This document shows, piece after piece, positions 6,050-33,641 of a stretch of 64,000 nt of DNA. How positions within the stretch are numbered: the first letter of the stretch is position 1; each line of letters starts with the position of its first letter. The DNA lies in the NCBI GenBank assembly GCA_958295805.1, contig OY282373.1, positions 2,831,499-2,895,498 of the forward strand, written 5' to 3'. The notes under the pieces were generated by a model. It made no database searches and was not told the origin of the DNA. It saw nothing but the letters and a program-made list of their open reading frames with translations. This stretch comes from an uncultured Nitrospirales bacterium. GTDB taxonomy: Bacteria > Nitrospirota > Nitrospiria > Nitrospirales > UBA8639. A program made the position numbers and the translations under genes.

Positions 6050-7262
6050 TAGCGGAAGGGGACCTGTATCGGAAAGCAAGAATCCGGCGGTGTCCACTGC
6101 AAGTCCGGCGAGCGTGCCGGCCGGCTTTGAAAAACGCATTTTGTTGTGTGTGGCCGGTTTATCGCCGCAGGTGATTACCGAAACGTTCTATGTCTTGGCA
6201 ACACGAGACAAATTTCTCCCGACCGACGTTCATATCATCACCACTGCCGAAGGTGCCCACAGGGTGCGCCTGACCCTGCTTGAAGACGACCCGGAAGAAC
6301 AGCATTTTTATCGGCTCTGCGCCGATCTTGACATTGACCCGGTCGGCATCCGATTCGACACCGAAACCATCCACCAGATACCCGCGGGTGACAAAAACCC
6401 CTCGTCCGCACATCACGCAGAGGCAGGGCTGGATGACATTCGCAGTCTTGCCGACAATCAAGCCGCGGCCGATACCATCACCGCCATCGTGCGCGACCTG
6501 ACTGCCGACTCACAAGCCGCCATTCATGCCTCGATCGCCGGTGGCCGCAAGACCATGGGGTTCTACCTGGGCTATGCCATGAGTCTGTTCGGGCGAGAAC
6601 AGGATCGCCTGTCTCACGTGCTGATCTCACCGCCATTCGAGTCACATCCCCGATTTTACTACCCACCTAAAAAACCGAAAGTGCTGCGGGACAACAACAA
6701 ACGTCCCATCCACACCCGTCACGCCGAGATCACGCTGGCAGACATCCCCTTTGTACGACTACGCGGACATCTGGACGGCAGCATACTCGGCGAAGAAACC
6801 AGTTACTCGGAAACCGTCCGTCGGGCACAACGCAACGTCGATCCGCCGAAACTCATTCTTGACCGCGAGAACAAAATGATTCAGTGCGGGGATCACTCCA
6901 TGACCTTCAGCCCCAATCTTTTCGCCTTTTACGCCTGGGTTGCCCGGCGTCTGCTGGCAGACAATCCCGGCATACACTGGACCCAGGACAACGTCAGCAA
7001 AGAATACCTCGAAGAATACGTCCGCATTGTCGGGGAGTACAGCGCAGATTATGAGAATGCGTGCGTCAGTTTACGACATGGCATGGACAAGGATTTTATC
7101 GACCCGAAAGCAAGCAAAATCAACAAGCAGATTAAAAAAATGCTTGGCAAAGAACCAGCCCGACCCTATCTAATCAGTACGCTCGGCGTGATTCCGGAAT
7201 CGCGGTACCGTTTGAAAGGTTTGACCTTGAAAAAAGAACAAGTACGATTTCTGACAGAATGA
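6024..7262 (+). CDS. NE0113-family CRISPR-associated CARF protein
   Basis: About 412 residues. After a non-conserved leader of some 36 residues the protein starts like NE0113-family members (KRILLCVAGLSPQVITETFY), then TTAEGAHR, and the ligand-loop motif SIAGGRKTMGFYLGYAMSLFG (about 170-190), marking a CARF-type sensor of cyclic oligoadenylate. The C-terminal half (about 230-412) matches no domain I recognise; it ends near IPESRYRLKGLTL. Members have been linked to ring-nuclease or signal-sensing roles; which applies here is not visible. The start overlaps the cas6 stop; ATG 6024 and 6036 both fit, and GTG 6090 or 6114 would remove the atypical leader. The last 24 bases lie in a 44-bp repeat found again after hepT. 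Confidence 0.8.
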   Translation: MKTGMKPPDSGRGPVSESKNPAVSTASPASVPAGFEKRILLCVAGLSPQVITETFYVLATRDKFLPTDVHIITTAEGAHRVRLTLLEDDPEEQHFYRLCADLDIDPVGIRFDTETIHQIPAGDKNPSSAHHAEAGLDDIRSLADNQAAADTITAIVRDLTADSQAAIHASIAGGRKTMGFYLGYAMSLFGREQDRLSHVLISPPFESHPRFYYPPKKPKVLRDNNKRPIHTRHAEITLADIPFVRLRGHLDGSILGEETSYSETVRRAQRNVDPPKLILDRENKMIQCGDHSMTFSPNLFAFYAWVARRLLADNPGIHWTQDNVSKEYLEEYVRIVGEYSADYENACVSLRHGMDKDFIDPKASKINKQIKKMLGKEPARPYLISTLGVIPESRYRLKGLTLKKEQVRFLTE

Positions 7263-7282
7263 CGAGGACGGCAAGCTTGCCG
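7239..7282. repeat. 44-bp direct repeat, copy 1 (end of the NE0113-family gene)
   Basis: Runs from the last codons of the NE0113-family gene (ACGATTTCTGACAGAA) into CGGCAAGCTTGCCG. It matches 7883-7926 at 41 of 44 positions. The two copies flank mntA-hepT, so the module was probably inserted or duplicated with one gene edge. Confidence 0.85.
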
Positions 7283-7335
7283 AATGTAGAGAAGGCATTG
7301 ACGAACATCAACGCAATCAACGAGAGGTCATTGAC

Positions 7336-7620
7336 GTGCACCCATTGATAGAAAATCATCGTGCGGAGATACGATTTCTGACTGAACGTTACGGCATTGA
7401 AAATGTACGGGTATTCGGATCCATGGCCAGGGGAGATGCGGACGATGCCAGTGATGTCGATCTGCTGGTATCGCTTCCCGAAAATAAGAGTGGGCTCATC
7501 CTTGGCGGATGGCTTATGGATGTTCAATATCTGTTGCAGCGTCGTGTGGACGTGGTAACGGAACGCGGTCTGCATCACGCGCTCCGCGATCTCATACTGA
7601 ATGAGGCACAACCCTTATGA
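7336..7620 (+). CDS. mntA: MNT-type nucleotidyltransferase (MntA-like antitoxin)
   Basis: 94-residue minimal nucleotidyltransferase. It shows the GSx10DxD catalytic signature as GSMARGDADDASDVDLLV, followed by ILGGWLMDVQYLLQRRVDVV. In MntA/HepT systems the MNT partner AMPylates the HEPN toxin and neutralises it; that role is inferred from the overlapping hepT. The GTG start at 7336 has GAGAGG 9 bases upstream. The 4-base overlap with hepT implies translational coupling. It sits between the NE0113-family gene and cas10 in the same orientation and so may be read with the cas operon. The symbol is given by family resemblance. Confidence 0.85.
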   Translation: MHPLIENHRAEIRFLTERYGIENVRVFGSMARGDADDASDVDLLVSLPENKSGLILGGWLMDVQYLLQRRVDVVTERGLHHALRDLILNEAQPL

Positions 7621-7898
7621 AGTCGTCTGCGCCATCGGATAAGGTTTTGCTAGGACATATTCGCGAGTCTATTGAGCGAATTCGAGAGTACACTGGCAAC
7701 AATCAAGACGTTTTCTTCGATTCGCAAATCGTGCGGGATGCGGTCGTGCCCAATTTGCAAATTCTTGCCGAATCCACTCAGCGGCTCAGCGACTCGATCA
7801 AGGCCACTGAGCAACGTGTTCCCTGGCGGGAGATCGCAGGCTTTCGCACCGTGCTCGCGCACGGTTACTCAGGACTTGACCACAGGTACGATTTCTGA
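7617..7898 (+). CDS. hepT: HEPN-domain ribonuclease toxin (HepT-like), C-terminally truncated
   Basis: 93-residue HEPN protein, partner of the upstream MNT gene. The RX4HXY active-site motif is intact as RTVLAHGY near the C-terminus, with EIAGFR before it. HepT proteins usually continue about 20 residues after this motif; here the frame ends at LDHRYDF because a 44-bp sequence copied from the end of the NE0113-family gene follows. Whether the shortened protein still folds and is toxic is open. Starts with ATG overlapping the mntA stop. Confidence 0.83.
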   Translation: MKSSAPSDKVLLGHIRESIERIREYTGNNQDVFFDSQIVRDAVVPNLQILAESTQRLSDSIKATEQRVPWREIAGFRTVLAHGYSGLDHRYDF

Positions 7899-7926
7899 CA
7901 GAAGGACGAGGCCGGCAAGCTTGCCG
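7883..7926. repeat. 44-bp direct repeat, copy 2 (end of hepT)
   Basis: Second copy of 7239-7282. It supplies the last codons and stop of hepT and ends with the same CGGCAAGCTTGCCG palindrome. The two starts are 644 bases apart. Confidence 0.85.
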
Positions 7927-14167: not shown

Positions 14168-14320
14168 TACGCGGCGGATCAGACTTGGTATAAATTTTCA
14201 ACGGCACCAGCGGCACCATGTGACACTTGGAAAATGCCGCAGTTTGGAAACAAGACTCTTTCGTCAAAACCATTTATATGTTTTAGCAATGACGACAAGA
14301 AACACCATTGAGGCGACGGC

Positions 14321-14752
14321 ATGACGGAAGAAAAAGAACGTTGGCAATATCGGTTCGATAATTTTAAGAGAGCCTACTTTCTATTACAGGAAGCAGCAGA
14401 AAGTCATCAAGAGGGTCTGCTCAATCAATTAGCGAAAGAGGGGATGATTCAACGATTTGAGTATTGTACGGAATTAGCCTGGAAAACGATCAAAGATTAT
14501 TTGGAAAGCCAGAACGTGGTCTTTGAGCAAATAACTCCCAGAGCTGTCTTAAAAGAAGCCGTCGCGGCAAAACTCATATCGAATGGGGAAGATTGGATGA
14601 GCGCGTTAGACGCACGCAATAAAATGAGTCACACGTATGACTTCAAGCAATTCGACGCCGTGATTGAAAAAATAGAAGGAACGTACCTCAACTGTTTTGG
14701 TGAGCTGTATGAAAAACTGTCTGGAGCTTATAGAGGCGCCGGTGATGATTGA
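14321..14752 (+). CDS. HEPN protein of the HI0074 / nucleotidyltransferase-substrate-binding family
   Basis: 143 residues, all helical. Matches the HI0074-type family by MIQRFEYCTELAWKTIKDYL, ITPRAVLKEAV and SALDARNKMSHTYD. The RNKMSHTY stretch is an RX4HXY HEPN active-site motif, as in HepT toxins. It is paired with the next gene, a minimal nucleotidyltransferase overlapping its stop by 8 bases, so a HepT/MntA-type toxin-antitoxin module is likely. Order is HEPN then MNT, the reverse of 7336-7898. It lies between csm5 and csx16 in cas orientation. Confidence 0.85.
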   Translation: MTEEKERWQYRFDNFKRAYFLLQEAAESHQEGLLNQLAKEGMIQRFEYCTELAWKTIKDYLESQNVVFEQITPRAVLKEAVAAKLISNGEDWMSALDARNKMSHTYDFKQFDAVIEKIEGTYLNCFGELYEKLSGAYRGAGDD

Positions 14753-16641: not shown

Positions 16642-16860
16642 CTAGGCTCTGACTGCCAACGGATGCCCAATGTCGTCTTTCATCCCGAGACGGCGACGGG
16701 CTTCGTCCAGTTTGCCGAAATCAATCCCGCCACGCTTGCGGAAGCGCACGAGTTCCACCGCCGGCTCTCCATGTTTCATGATCACAACACGCTCACCGCC
16801 TTGGGCAGCGGCGACAAGTTCGGAAAGGCGTGCTTTTACCTGACACAGGGCAAACTCCAT
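16642..16860 (-). CDS. Phd/YefM-type antitoxin
   Basis: 72 residues with the classic prevent-host-death N-terminus: QVKARLSELVAAAQGGERVVI followed by MKHGEPAVELV. The C-terminus (DEARRRLGMKDDIGHPLAVRA) is the part that would bind a toxin. Good ribosome site AGGAG 8 bases before the ATG. Normally such genes neutralise a RelE, Doc or VapC toxin encoded next door and autorepress the operon. Here the next gene downstream encodes the CARF-RelE fusion and no PIN or Doc gene is present, so the CARF-RelE protein is the candidate partner. An orphaned VapC-type antitoxin is the alternative. Confidence 0.83.
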   Translation of the reverse strand: MEFALCQVKARLSELVAAAQGGERVVIMKHGEPAVELVRFRKRGGIDFGKLDEARRRLGMKDDIGHPLAVRA

Positions 16861-17051
16861 AAAAACTCTCCTGATGGTTCAAAGAATCGGAGTATGGATC
16901 CTCTCGTGTCTACGGTCAAGACTATGGTGGACCTACAATAAAAAATATGGAGACACCCATCGATCGTTCACCGTCAAGGTTCATCCGCGTACCACCCACG
17001 GCAAGCTTGCCATTCCTGCACGGCACGTTCCAACGTCGGTACCTTATCAGA

Positions 17052-18849: not shown

Positions 18850-19818
18850 GTTTGAAATGAAGACCTGACGAAGAAGGGATTAAGACCACGTTCCGCTGTT
18901 GCAATCGTCCATTGTCGATTGTTTGAAATGAAGACCTGACGAAGAAGGGATTAAGACACGATGGATGTGTATCTTTCAACGGCTGTTATCCAGTTTGAAA
19001 TGAAGACCTGACGAAGAAGGGATTAAGACTGTCCCGCCCCCCTTCTAATCAGATTTATCGTAAGTTTGAAATGAAGACCTGACGAAGAAGGGATTAAGAC
19101 TATGACCACCCCCACATTTTCGACTGATTGATTGTCGTTTGAAATGAAGACCTGACGAAGAAGGGATTAAGACGAAACCACCTGTTTGAATTGCGGATGG
19201 TCTTTTGGTTTGAAATGAAGACCTGACGAAGAAGGGATTAAGACGATTCTCTCTCTCACTGATTTCATGGGCTCTCCTTGTTTGAAATGAAGACCTGACG
19301 AAGAAGGGATTAAGACACCTGAAGGCCGTGCTTACAAACCAGGTTTTTGTGTTTGAAATGAAGACCTGACGAAGAAGGGATTAAGACTCTGAATACCCGT
19401 ACTCTTTCAGACGTTTTGTGTGGTTTGAAATGAAGACCTGACGAAGAAGGGATTAAGACAGTCAGGCCGACGACCAGTCAGACCGACGACCCTGGTTTGA
19501 AATGAAGACCTGACGAAGAAGGGATTAAGACAATCGCAATGCCTACAATAAGCCGCGTCTGGGACGTTTGAAATGAAGACCTGACGAAGAAGGGATTAAG
19601 ACACTATAGATTCTGTGGCAATGACGTTCATGCTAAGTTTGAAATGAAGACCTGACGAAGAAGGGATTAAGACCTGAATCCATCGACAACATGAGCAGAC
19701 GGCACCATGTTTGAAATGAAGACCTGACGAAGAAGGGATTAAGACTTCAAGCAGTTTGCGAATTTGCCGAACTTTATCCACGTTTGAAATGAAGACCTGA
19801 CGAAGAAGGGATGCAGAC
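18850..19818 (+). CRISPR. CRISPR array, 14 repeats and 13 spacers
   Basis: Repeats are 37 bp, beginning GTTTGAAATGAAGACC and ending GAAGAAGGGATTAAGAC, at 18850, 18921, 18993, 19064, 19137, 19208, 19280, 19351, 19423, 19495, 19566, 19637, 19709 and 19782. The first 13 are identical by eye; the last ends GGATGCAGAC instead of GGATTAAGAC, marking the distal end. Spacers are 34-36 bp. The forward strand is taken as the crRNA strand because cas1-cas2 and the leader lie upstream, and the 3' end ATTAAGAC resembles the ATTGAAAC tag of many type III crRNAs. Spacer 9 (19460-19494) contains two near-identical 16-bp units. Decayed copies of the repeat lie beyond the nuclease gene at 20693-21065. Confidence 0.98.
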
Positions 19819-27382: not shown

Positions 27383-27514
27383 GCGATACCCGCCAGTCAT
27401 TCCTGAAACAACCCGAATTCCCGTTTGCACGGGCATGACGTTCTTTCACGGGGACGGCAAGGTTTCGTGATGCGACCAACGAATGAGTCAATACAGACGA
27501 GAAGGACTGAGAAC

Positions 27515-28699
27515 ATGAGTAACGAACAAGTCAGACAACAAGACGTGAACAACGCCGCGTGGAACGCATGCGACACGTTCCGCGGGGTGATGGACGCCAC
27601 GGACTATAAGGACTACATCCTTGTCATGTTGTTTCTCAAATACCTCTCGGACACCTGGAAGGCTCACGTTGAAGAATATCGAAGACGCTTCCGCAGCGAT
27701 GCAACCAGAATCCGCCGCAGATTGGAACGCGAACGTTTTGTACTGCCCGAAGACGCCGGTTTCTACGACCTCTACGAGAAGCGCAATGAAGCCAATATCG
27801 GCGAGTTGATCAACGTGGCCTTGGAGTCCATTGAAGAAAAGAACAGGACAAAACTGGACGGCGTGTTCCGCAACATTGATTTTAATTCAGAAGCCAAGTT
27901 CGGCAAAACCCGAGACCGCAACCGCCGCTTGAAGATGCTGCTGGAAGATTTCAACAAGCCGGAACTTGACCTGAGCCCCGGACGCATCTCGGAAGACGTG
28001 ATCGGCAACACCTACATCTATCTGATTGAACGGTTTGCCTCCGACGCCGGAAAGAAAGCCGGAGAGTTCTACACGCCTCATAAAGTCTCGAAACTGGTGG
28101 CGCGTCTCTGTGCGCCGAAACCCGGGGCGCGCGTCTGCGATCCGGCCTGCGGGTCCGGCGGTCTGCTGATTGAGGCCGCACGGCAGGTAGGCAGCAAGAA
28201 TTTCTTTCTGTCCGGCATGGAAGTGAACGGCGGTACGTGGGTGTTGTGCCGAATGAACATGTTTCTGCACGGCATGGACTCCGCTCGAATTGAATGGTGC
28301 AACACGCTCACAAGCCCGGCTCTGGTGGAAAAAGACGGGCTGATGAAGTTTGACAACATTGTCGCCAATCCGCCGTTTTCTCTGGACAAGTGGGGAATCG
28401 AGGAAGCCGAACACGACCGGTTCAAACGCTTCTGGCGAGGCGTGCCGCCAAAGTCCAAGGGAGATTACGCCTTTATCACCCACATGATTGAGGTCGCAGT
28501 AGAAAAGAAAGGCCGCGTGGCGGTGGTCGTTCCACACGGAGTGTTATTCCGCGGCGCGGTCGAAGGGCGGATTCGTCAGAAATTGGTAGAAGAAAATCTG
28601 CTGGATGCGGTGATCGGCCTGCCGGGAAACCTGTTTCCGACAACGTCCATCCCTGTCGCCATTCTCATCTTTGACCGTTCCCGACGTGCTGTTTATTGA
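27515..28699 (+). CDS. hsdM: Type I restriction methyltransferase HsdM, 5' part (frameshifted)
   Basis: N6-adenine methyltransferase subunit of a type I system. Helical N-domain from NAAWNACDTFRGVMDATDYKDYILVMLFLKYLSD; SAM motif VCDPACGSGGLLIEAA; catalytic NPPFSLD; FYTPHKVSKLVARL typical of HsdM. The frame stops early at FDRSRRAVY where HsdM proteins continue; the missing C-terminus lies in the +1 frame (next entry), and about ten residues usually found at this junction are absent. So it is either a real disrupting deletion or a sequence error. Catalytic motifs are intact, but HsdM needs its C-terminal helices to bind HsdS. ATG 27515 follows a GAAGGA site. Confidence 0.88.
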   Translation: MSNEQVRQQDVNNAAWNACDTFRGVMDATDYKDYILVMLFLKYLSDTWKAHVEEYRRRFRSDATRIRRRLERERFVLPEDAGFYDLYEKRNEANIGELINVALESIEEKNRTKLDGVFRNIDFNSEAKFGKTRDRNRRLKMLLEDFNKPELDLSPGRISEDVIGNTYIYLIERFASDAGKKAGEFYTPHKVSKLVARLCAPKPGARVCDPACGSGGLLIEAARQVGSKNFFLSGMEVNGGTWVLCRMNMFLHGMDSARIEWCNTLTSPALVEKDGLMKFDNIVANPPFSLDKWGIEEAEHDRFKRFWRGVPPKSKGDYAFITHMIEVAVEKKGRVAVVVPHGVLFRGAVEGRIRQKLVEENLLDAVIGLPGNLFPTTSIPVAILIFDRSRRAVY

Positions 28700-28997
28700 C
28701 GCCAGCCGCGAATACCAGTCCGGCAAAAACCAGAATACCTTGCTGGACCAACACCTGGACAAAATCGTTCGGGCTTACCAGAAACGAGAGAAAATTGATA
28801 AATACGCATATCCGGCCGATATTGCAGAGATTGAAGAAAACGATTTCAACCTGAACATCCCACGCTACGTGGACACCTTTGAAGAAGAGGAAGAGATTGA
28901 CATTGATGCGGTGCAAGAGGAAATAGATCAATTGGAAGAAGATCTGGCCGCAGTGCGGGGGGAGATGGGGAAATTATTGAAGAGTATCCGCAGATGA
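28671..28997 (+). pseudogene. hsdM: HsdM C-terminal part in the +1 frame
   Basis: Reads PDVLFIDASREYQSGKNQNT and continues to RGEMGKLLKSIRR, the usual end of HsdM, with acidic EEEEEIDID and coiled-coil sequence that packs against HsdS. It overlaps the upstream part by 29 bases in another frame and has no ribosome site of its own. Together 27515-28997 would be one gene without the shift. Confidence 0.8.
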
Positions 28998-29015
28998 CGC
29001 AGATGGGCGCAGATT
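28986..29015 (+). repeat. 29-bp element, copy A (ATCCGCAGATGACGCAGATG type)
   Basis: Begins ATCCGCAGATGACGCAGATG and ends GGCGCAGATT; it overlaps the end of the hsdM C-terminal frame. It is an inverted match of 30440-30468 at 28 of 29 positions and a direct match of 30051-30080. Confidence 0.85.
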
Positions 29016-29032
29016 GAAGAGAGGAGTAACCC

Positions 29033-30022
29033 GTGAAAAAGAACGTCAAAGAGATTGTCATCTACCAGGCAAAAAATGGACAAATCGAATTCCGCGGGGA
29101 TTTTGATCGTGATACGGTTTGGGGAAGTCTCAAGCAAATCTCGGAGTTGTTCGGGAGAGACAAGTCGGTCGTCTCGCGTCATATCACAAACATCTTCAAA
29201 TCTCGGGAATTAGAACCGGATTCAGTTGTTGCAAAAATTGCAACAGTTCAAAAAGAAGGAGAACGGGAGGTTATTCGTGAGATTGATTACTACAACCTGG
29301 ATATAATTCTCTCCGTCGGCTACCGCGTGGATTCCAAACAGGCCACACAATTCCGCATTTGGGCTACCAAAACACTCAAGCAACACCTGCTTGAAGGATA
29401 TACGATCAATAAAAAACGTATTGCGGAAAATCATGAGAAATTTATACAGGCCGTCTCTGATGTCAAAGCTCTGCTGCCCACGGGCAACGTCGTACACGCA
29501 CAAGACGTTCTGGAACTTGTGGAGGCTTTTGCCAACACGTGGATTTCCCTGGATGCCTATGACACCCAAAATTTCCCTGAAAACGGGGCAACGAAAAAAG
29601 CGGTAACGTTTACGGCTGATGAACTGACGCAGGCATTGCACGAGTTCAAGCAAGAACTGCTCGTGCGAAAACACGCAACGGATATTTTCGGTCAGGAAAG
29701 AAGCGAAGACGCCGTACACGGAATTGTCGGCAACGTGTTTCAATCCTTTGGCAGTCAAGACCTGTATCCGACGGTTGAAGAAAAAGCCTCACACCTTCTC
29801 TACTTCATGGTAAAAAATCATCCCTTTGTGGACGGCAATAAACGAAGCGGCGCATTTGCGTTCATCTGGTTCTTACGCAAAGCCGGTCTTCTTCGGGCAA
29901 GTCTCACCCCGGAAGCCCTGACGGCTTTGACCTTGCTGGTGGCGGAAAGCAAGCCGAAGGATAAGGAAAAGATGATCGGGTTAATGTTGTTATTACTACA
30001 GAAAAATATGAATCAATCATGA
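29033..30022 (+). CDS. RhuM-Fic/Doc family protein
   Basis: 329 residues. The N-terminal RhuM-like part reads VIYQAKNGQIEF, LFGRDKSVVSRHITNIF and YYNLDIILSVGYRVDSKQATQFRIWATKTLKQHLLEGY. The C-terminal Fic/Doc domain has the active motif HPFVDGNKRSG (about 263-273), closer to Doc (ends NKR) than to Fic (GNGR), so AMP- or phosphotransfer is predicted. Genes of this fusion are regular guests in type I restriction operons, as here between hsdM and hsdS. It starts 17 bases after copy A of the CAGATG repeat. The link to restriction is not understood. Confidence 0.87.
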   Translation: MKKNVKEIVIYQAKNGQIEFRGDFDRDTVWGSLKQISELFGRDKSVVSRHITNIFKSRELEPDSVVAKIATVQKEGEREVIREIDYYNLDIILSVGYRVDSKQATQFRIWATKTLKQHLLEGYTINKKRIAENHEKFIQAVSDVKALLPTGNVVHAQDVLELVEAFANTWISLDAYDTQNFPENGATKKAVTFTADELTQALHEFKQELLVRKHATDIFGQERSEDAVHGIVGNVFQSFGSQDLYPTVEEKASHLLYFMVKNHPFVDGNKRSGAFAFIWFLRKAGLLRASLTPEALTALTLLVAESKPKDKEKMIGLMLLLLQKNMNQS

Positions 30023-30050
30023 AGAGATAACGCACGAAATTCTCAACAAA

Positions 30051-30080
30051 ATCCGCAGATGACGCAGATGAGCGCAGATA
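30051..30080 (+). repeat. 29-bp element, copy B
   Basis: ATCCGCAGATGACGCAGATG then AGCGCAGATA. It overlaps the start codon of the GxxExxY gene. Confidence 0.85.
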
Positions 30081-30481
30081 AGAGGGATGAGGAGACTTAT
30101 GCGGCTATTGGGGCTGCTATGGCGGTACATAGCGAATTGGGGTGTGGGTTCCTTGAGGCAGTGTATCAGGAGGCATTGGAACAAGAGTTCTTGTTCCGGG
30201 GAGTGCCGTATGTTCGTGAAAAGAAGTTAGCTGTACGGTACAAGGGCAGGGAATTGAGGTCTCACTATCAAGCCGACTTTCTATGCTTCGATTCAGTAAT
30301 CGTAGAATTGAAGGCACTGCAAAAACTGTCCAGCATTGAAGAGACTCAAGTCATTAACGACCTCAAAGCCTCGGGACTGAACAAAGCCCTACTCATCAAT
30401 TTCGGCGCCCAAAAACTGGAGTACAAAAGACTGGTGTTTAATCTGCGCCCATCTGCGCCATCTGCGGAAAAGGAAAAGTAA
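30059..30481 (+). CDS. GxxExxY family protein
   Basis: 140 residues with the name-giving motif in [13 protein letters not shown] (about 29-41), then [17 protein letters not shown] (nuclease-like D...ExK pattern) and [22 protein letters not shown]. Function unknown; the core looks like a small PD-(D/E)XK fold. Both ends are built from the CAGATG repeat: the first codons from copy B and the last ([12 protein letters not shown]) from inverted copy C. This repeat association suggests that gene and repeats move as one unit. ATG 30068 is an alternative start. Confidence 0.85.
30440..30469 (-). repeat. 29-bp element, inverted copy C
   Basis: AATCTGCGCCCATCTGCGCC then ATCTGCGGAA, the inverse of copies A and B. 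A shortened inverted piece (TACGCCCATCTGCAGATAAA) follows at about 30494-30513. Confidence 0.85.
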
Positions 30482-32790: not shown

Positions 32791-32837
32791 AACACAAACC
32801 TAAACGATAGGGACTCCGCCTTGATTGACCTATAATT

Positions 32838-32877
32838 TGTTCAATATATCGAACAAAAATGTTCAGTACGTTGAACA
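32838..32877. promoter_or_regulatory. Two tandem palindromic operator-like sites
   Basis: TGTTCAATATATCGAACA (32838-32855) and TGTTCAGTACGTTGAACA (32860-32877) share TGTTCN8GAACA and are 22 bp apart centre to centre, about two helical turns. A TATAAT (32831-32836) lies directly upstream. They probably control the protease gene and/or hsdR. The regulator is unknown. Confidence 0.6.
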
Positions 32878-32930
32878 AAATCATTCAAAAAGCCTGATCG
32901 TTGGCCCAGGCAGCATTGCTCTTGAACGCT

Positions 32931-33004
32931 TTCTGTCAACGCCCGTTGACTACTGGATACAATAAATGTCCGGTTTCCGATTCAACGAAAAATATCTCTC
33001 CCAA
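32931..33004. repeat. 74-bp direct repeat, fossil copy of the hsdR start
   Basis: Contains the 5' leader and first 13 codons of hsdR (MSGFRFNEKYLSQ) followed by an immediate stop. It matches 33568-33641 at nearly every position. Start-to-start distance is 637 bases. Confidence 0.88.
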
Positions 33005-33083
33005 TGAGGTCCGGAAAATTCCGCATGGGCTGAAACGGTCAAGCGTCTTTGGGATGGAAGTCACGGAAAAAGGAGAAATTGCC

Positions 33084-33524
33084 ATGGGGTTCATACATGC
33101 GGAAATAGACTTGTCGAATCCACGGAATAGAGAGCTGGCATCACTAAAAGTCTGTGCGTTGGTTGATACCGGCGCGATCACGCTTTGTATTCCTGAGCAT
33201 GTTGCCGTTCAATTGGACTTAGCGGAATTAGAGAAAAGAGAAGTCACAGCGGCAGAGGGAAGACACGTTCCCGTCCCTTATGTCGGTCCCGTTCAAATAA
33301 CGTTTGAGAACCGGTCCTGCTACACGGGCGCGCTTGTCTTGGGTGATAGTATTCTCTTGGGTTCCATACCCATGGAAGACATGGATCTGGTCGTCAATTC
33401 AAGAATGCAGACGATAACGGTTAATCCTGAAAGTCCTAACATGCCTTCCGCCGTGGTCAAACGTGCCAGACTGACGCATCACTCCTGCGGACGGCTGTCT
33501 TCGAGCGGCAGACCGTCGGTCTGA
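33084..33524 (+). CDS. Clan AA retropepsin-like aspartyl protease
   Basis: 146 residues. Starts MGFIHAEIDLSNPRNREL, with the active-site motif ALVDTGAITLCIPEHVA (Asp-Thr-Gly-Ala about residue 33) and a later hydrophobic-Gly segment VLGDSILLGSIPMEDMDLVV, as in small bacterial clan AA aspartic proteases. These act as dimers; targets unknown. AGGAG 8 bases before ATG 33084 supports this start. The gene sits between two copies of the hsdR 5' end and so looks inserted; the tail after VNPESPN is not family-like. Confidence 0.82.
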   Translation: MGFIHAEIDLSNPRNRELASLKVCALVDTGAITLCIPEHVAVQLDLAELEKREVTAAEGRHVPVPYVGPVQITFENRSCYTGALVLGDSILLGSIPMEDMDLVVNSRMQTITVNPESPNMPSAVVKRARLTHHSCGRLSSSGRPSV

Positions 33525-33567
33525 GTGCAATGTACGTAAAGGAAAAACTGACGGCCATTGAATTTCA

Positions 33568-33641
33568 TTCTGTCAACGCCCGCTGAACACTGGATATAAT
33601 AAATGTCCGGTTTCCGATTCAACGAAAAATATCTCTCCCAA
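33568..33641. repeat. 74-bp direct repeat, live copy at the hsdR start
   Basis: Leader and first codons of the functional hsdR. Paired with 32931-33004. Confidence 0.88.

Follow-up and report, generated by a model that had tools for sequence, protein, structure and literature searches.

Direct repeat and protease gene at the hsdR start

We analysed a stretch of 64 kb (the window, to whose positions all coordinates refer) in which an intact hsdR gene is preceded by a protease gene, by a second, orphan copy of the hsdR start and by several pieces of an ATPase gene (Table 1). The two hsdR starts lie in a 74-nt direct repeat (32931–33004 and 33568–33641; start-to-start distance 637), whose copies are identical at 70 of 74 positions. 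All four mismatches fall in the ATPase part of the repeat (4/35) and none in the hsdR part (0/39). In a self-BLAST comparison the repeat had an E-value of 2e-28, far beyond chance. The first copy ends with hsdR codon 13 and runs directly into a stop codon; the second copy is the start of the intact gene. A preliminary description of this DNA had reported the hsdR leader and first 13 codons twice, with a stop after the first copy and a protease gene between the copies. We found all of these features where they had been placed. The 35 nt before the ATG are indeed duplicated, but they are not a simple hsdR leader; they form the 3′ terminus of an ATPase gene (DUF4143).

An assembly artefact is unlikely, as the copies differ at four sites, their flanks are unique and the genome is a single contig. 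A transposon-borne insertion was rejected: the DNA between the copies contains no recognisable transposase ORF and showed no terminal inverted repeats.

Table 1. Features at the start of hsdR, in window positions
Feature	Position	Strand	Evidence
Upstream region of the lost ATPase gene, with two operator-like inverted repeats (TGTTCAATATATCGAACA, TGTTCAGTACGTTGAACA)	32831–32885	+	DNA likeness to G007 and G004
ATPase (AAA_14/DUF4143) 3′ end, copy 1, last ~26 codons and TAA	32886–32965	+	nhmmer E 2e-14 (32886–32964)
Orphan hsdR start, 13 codons identical to hsdR (32966–33004), then TGA (33005–33007)	32966–33007	+	Repeat comparison
ATPase middle fragment, codons ~90–112, WAETVKRLWD, out of order after the 3′ end	33004–33072	+	nhmmer E 5e-8 (33004–33064)
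Clan AA (retropepsin-like) aspartic protease gene, 146 codons, ribosome-binding site AAAGGAG	33084–33524	+	TIGR03698
Probable ATPase fragment, codons ~343–357, KEKLTAIEFHS	33533–33567	+	Weak match
ATPase 3′ end, copy 2	33568–33602	+	nhmmer E 0.005 (33558–33600); 31/35 identical to copy 1
hsdR, intact, 1061 codons	33603–36788	+	TIGR00348, 477 bits

The protease scores 75.2 bits against TIGR03698 (curated cutoff 57.35) and resembles this clan AA family also in its size, its DTG motif (catalytic D28-T29-G30, invariant among eleven relatives) and its retropepsin-like predicted fold. The predicted model is of moderate confidence (pLDDT 66); its top matches in a fold search against the PDB were Rickettsia APRc, Ddi1 and retroviral proteases (E-values of about 5e-4 to 1e-3), and a PDB search by protease sequence gave nothing significant. 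Unlike most TIGR03698 relatives, the protease of the window has a C-terminal extension of ~20 residues. Its position next to hsdR is unique among the genus genomes searched: the gene is absent from this restriction locus in all relatives where the locus was found, and the relatives of the protease that we examined are sited elsewhere, without such an ATPase neighbour. As proteins, both the protease and HsdR may be functional.

ATPase remnants around the protease gene

In genome G012 (locus L014) an ATPase gene (AAA_14/DUF4143 by Pfam) closes with the same 35 nt; its product ends in ...LERFLSTPVEYWIQ, and its stop codon abuts the hsdR start codon. ATPase relatives unlinked to this hsdR have similar ends (FLSMPIEDWLLS, FLSKPVTHWLKT and FLSTPAMDWFKQS), which argues that this tail is the ATPase gene's own. 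The first copy of the tail (from 32886) is 88% identical at the DNA level over 118 bp to G004, hsdR start included, and the protein-level match is 71% over 28 aa. The region upstream of it (Table 1) is 86% identical over 58 bp to the sequence upstream of hsdR in G007 and, over 47 bp, 87% identical to what precedes the intact ATPase gene of G004. Several relatives retain the two operator-like inverted repeats (TGTTCAAT..TTGAACA type) ahead of either the ATPase gene or hsdR, even after loss of the ATPase gene.

A DNA profile of seven ATPase genes, with which the whole window was searched by nhmmer, produced three matches with an E-value below 0.01: the two 3′ ends and a middle fragment located directly after hsdR codon 13, with a new junction at 33004/33005. 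This middle fragment is only ~61–69 nt long; by blastn it is 77% identical to the G004 ATPase gene and 82% identical to that of G008, and for each of six ATPases none of 200 shuffles reached its score. The fragment to the right of the protease gene is weak: its score was reached by 1 of 200 shuffles against G004 DNA and by 2 of 1000 against G008 protein, and it was not significant against G012. After the first repeat copy, the ATPase middle, the late fragment (the weak one), the 3′ end and hsdR stand in the order expected of a second copy, which, given the weakness of the late fragment, may be collinear with the first. Judged by these likenesses, the protease gene is located within ATPase debris and not between two bare target copies.

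The locus in relatives and the origin of the repeat

Orthologues of hsdR in the genus are 82–85% identical and lack the protease gene; where found in relatives, the restriction locus is always in the same place, before dapL. The state of its genes varies. The ATPase gene is intact in G012, G013 and G004. Both it and hsdR are intact in G012, in a single ATPase-hsdR copy; in G004 and G013 the intact ATPase gene is followed by an hsdR cut to its first codons. Three genomes (G007, G001 and G005) have hsdR with a scar of the operator and/or the ATPase tail, two (G011 and G002) have hsdR with the ATPase tail nearly or fully gone, and in G009 both genes are present as scars only. Comparison with protease-free loci, proposed in the preliminary description, showed a single-copy arrangement in relatives; in G012 it is the ATPase gene, and not a bare leader, that precedes hsdR. 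With such repeated decay at the spot before dapL, a decayed duplication would be unremarkable there.

The hsdR remnants of G004, G013 and G009 (L078, L079 and L080), all located before dapL, share the end sequence CCGTTCCTTGATTC, which suggests one ancestral deletion. In the window itself, hsdM (27425–28997) has lost 32 bp by comparison with G007; the deletion shifts the reading frame near codon 420 of the first ORF and probably breaks the modification subunit, so that the restriction system as a whole may be inactive.

We consider it likely that the repeat is the scar of an old head-to-tail duplication of the ATPase gene, which later decayed and in whose second copy the protease gene lodged. 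The end-middle-end order of the ATPase pieces and the joining of an hsdR edge to the ATPase interior point to such a duplication. The ancestral state would be an ATPase gene directly before hsdR, with its stop abutting the start codon. A unit of ~1 kb that starts near ATPase codon 90 and stops at hsdR codon 13 (by the layout of G004, some 970 bp) would have been duplicated by illegitimate recombination, with at most 1–2 nt shared at the junction, to leave a second ATPase 3′ part before the intact hsdR and an orphan 13-codon hsdR start behind. The first ATPase copy would then have decayed to its upstream region and last ~26 codons, and the second would have lost most of its interior. The protease gene, now between ATPase fragments, would have been captured into this debris or have replaced part of it; the repeat would not be its product. 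We infer the duplication step, the order of the deletions and the manner of the protease's arrival, starting from the observed gene order and fragment identities and from the intact ATPase-hsdR and protease-free versions seen in relatives. The orphan hsdR fragment is probably without function, and the locus appears to be mostly ordinary genome decay with a readable history.

The independent ATPase and hsdR scars that relatives carry before dapL support this duplication and decay, as does locus L128 of the same genome (see below), where two blocks are duplicated in the same order and the inside of one copy is lost. Divergence between the repeat copies is low (4/74) compared with the 12–25% seen between species over comparable stretches, which argues that the duplication is lineage-specific. 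As a counterpoint, the ATPase fragment right of the protease gene is weak, and the second copy could be a separately acquired ATPase piece; the shortness of the middle fragment also weighs against the duplication. An intermediate with two ATPase copies and no protease gene was found in none of the genomes compared. The proposed history resembles the duplication-random-loss model, best documented in mitochondrial genomes (PMC5745709), in its head-to-tail segment, its new end-to-interior junction and the unequal decay of the copies. It differs in that the copies are reduced to scraps, a foreign gene sits in the second copy and no intermediate is seen. Literature searches on DUF4143 and on remodelling by duplication yielded nothing usable.

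The preliminary description had the protease gene inserted at the hsdR start with a 74-bp duplication. For restriction-modification loci, insertion with long target duplication has been proposed in print (Nobusato et al. 2000, as relayed in citing passages of PMC1643837 and PMC4978471), and the window resembles it superficially: a long direct repeat, copied from the edge of a neighbouring gene, flanks an accessory gene and leaves hsdR intact; other gene-edge repeats frame accessory modules in the same genome. We nevertheless regard an insertion of this kind as improbable here. The insert does not abut both repeat copies: the ATPase middle fragment lies between the first copy and the protease gene, although the relatives do have the single copy expected of an empty site. 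The duplicated block would run from mid-ATPase into hsdR, with the protease gene in the debris of the second copy, so that target-site duplication by an inserting protease gene does not account for the repeat; neighbour-gene debris separates repeat from protease, and the insert's edge therefore does not coincide with the repeat. Such an insert would have to open with mid-gene sequence, and probably close with late sequence, from the very gene that natively precedes hsdR, and no protease gene adjoins such an ATPase in the relatives examined.

A foreign fragment that carried the protease gene inside a related ATPase-hsdR start could also have been captured by recombination, homologous at one end and illegitimate at the other, and so have supplied the second ATPase 3′ end and the second hsdR start. 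The middle fragment is about equally close to the ATPases of G004 and G008, and possible donors exist in the ATPase plus hsdR-start remnants of G004, G013 and G009. As the hsdR pieces are identical (0/39) and the repeat copies 95% alike, against 12–25% divergence from other species, the donor would have to come from the same lineage, and we hold such a capture to be very unlikely. Finally, the orphan 13-codon frame with the operator could be a functional regulatory leader for the protease gene and hsdR; the frame is unbroken and matches the hsdR start exactly, and relatives keep the operator-like inverted repeats that lie just upstream. Yet the arrangement occurs in no relative, recency alone accounts for the identity and the frame ends in ATPase debris, which makes a regulatory role hardly credible.

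Gene-edge repeats elsewhere in the window and the genome

The preliminary description had taken three repeats in the window as a hint of one mechanism. The mntA-hepT pair (7238–7926), located between csm6 and cas10, is framed by a repeat of the csm6 3′ edge as described, except that its length is 45 nt and not 44 (42/45, 93%). Both genes are below the cutoff in NCBIfam matches and above it in Pfam matches; the match of hepT to its Pfam profile stops at position 100 of 120, the end of the gene being cut at the second repeat copy. No clear empty site for the pair was recovered in relatives. What had been reported as 42-bp repeats at hsdS comprises two separate features: a 45-nt repeat of the hsdS tail (3′ end; 82% identical, 31675/31792), which brackets a REP-like hairpin, and a distinct 41-nt repeat of the CGCAGAT type (28986/30051). 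Repeats of the latter type (28986–30481) are located one after hsdM, one before a GxxExxY gene and one, inverted, after it (30441–30468); they are possibly an element of their own.

A single mechanism for the three cases does not fit their junctions, which are those of a probable decayed duplication, a csm6-edge frame and an hsdS-tail copy. The description itself had named unrelated ages and junction types as grounds for refutation. The types do differ; as to age, judged by mismatches, only the hsdS repeat looks older than the hsdR repeat (8/45 vs 4/74, Fisher p 0.055), and the mntA-hepT repeat (3/45) shows no difference (p 1.0).

To place the window in its genome, we counted pairs of direct repeats (36–200 nt, at least 80% identity, 80–2500 bp apart) in 400 kb of the same chromosome. 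There are 32 such local pairs (~5 per 64 kb), many of them REP-like or protein-internal repeats, and the window has four outside its CRISPR array; relative to these 400 kb, it is thus not enriched in local direct repeats. Enrichment of gene-edge pairs alone is possible, as a post hoc comparison. The suspicion that gene-edge duplications recur in the genome proved right: in stretches totalling ~0.8 Mb three further cases stand out, L103 (49 nt), L104 (143 nt) and L128 (131 nt).

At L128 the 131-nt 3′ end of a HigB-like gene frames a module of AAA_15 and DUF3226 genes, and another block, of 302 nt (90% identical; by eye a DUF2442-like gene), is likewise duplicated, with the order of the two blocks kept (14180–14481 and 16746–16876 vs 18964–19265 and 19366–19496). 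In G012 the AAA_15/DUF3226 module is on the other side of the HigAB-like genes. L128 reads as a clear scar of duplication and loss, and as its anatomy is that of the hsdR locus, a shared process of duplication and loss, not insertion, is possible.

It is a tentative and somewhat doubtful extension that, across the genus, defence and toxin-antitoxin genes framed by copies of a neighbouring gene edge arise repeatedly by tandem duplication with reciprocal loss. If so, an apparent long target duplication would often be a rearrangement scar, and hsdR and L128 (the DUF2442/HigAB-like locus) would make the process visible as two examples that have not yet fully decayed. A gene-edge repeat on either side of an accessory gene is not necessarily left by insertion; comparison with relatives can show it to be a decayed tandem duplication. 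Long target duplication at restriction and toxin-antitoxin loci becomes testable by asking whether debris of the neighbouring gene lies between repeat and accessory gene.

At L103 (16902–17845), 49 nt of the 3′ end of an outer-membrane-protein gene (96% identical) frame a pair of antitoxin-like and PIN toxin genes; in G006 and G001 this pair adjoins the same SLFN_AlbA_2 gene, without the outer-membrane gene. At L104 (9802–12609) the 143-nt 3′ end of an FGE-sulfatase gene frames a DUF2130 gene and smaller genes; in G010 (L186, 2294–2489) the module is absent, and the same edge recurs as a 47-nt copy 149 bp downstream.
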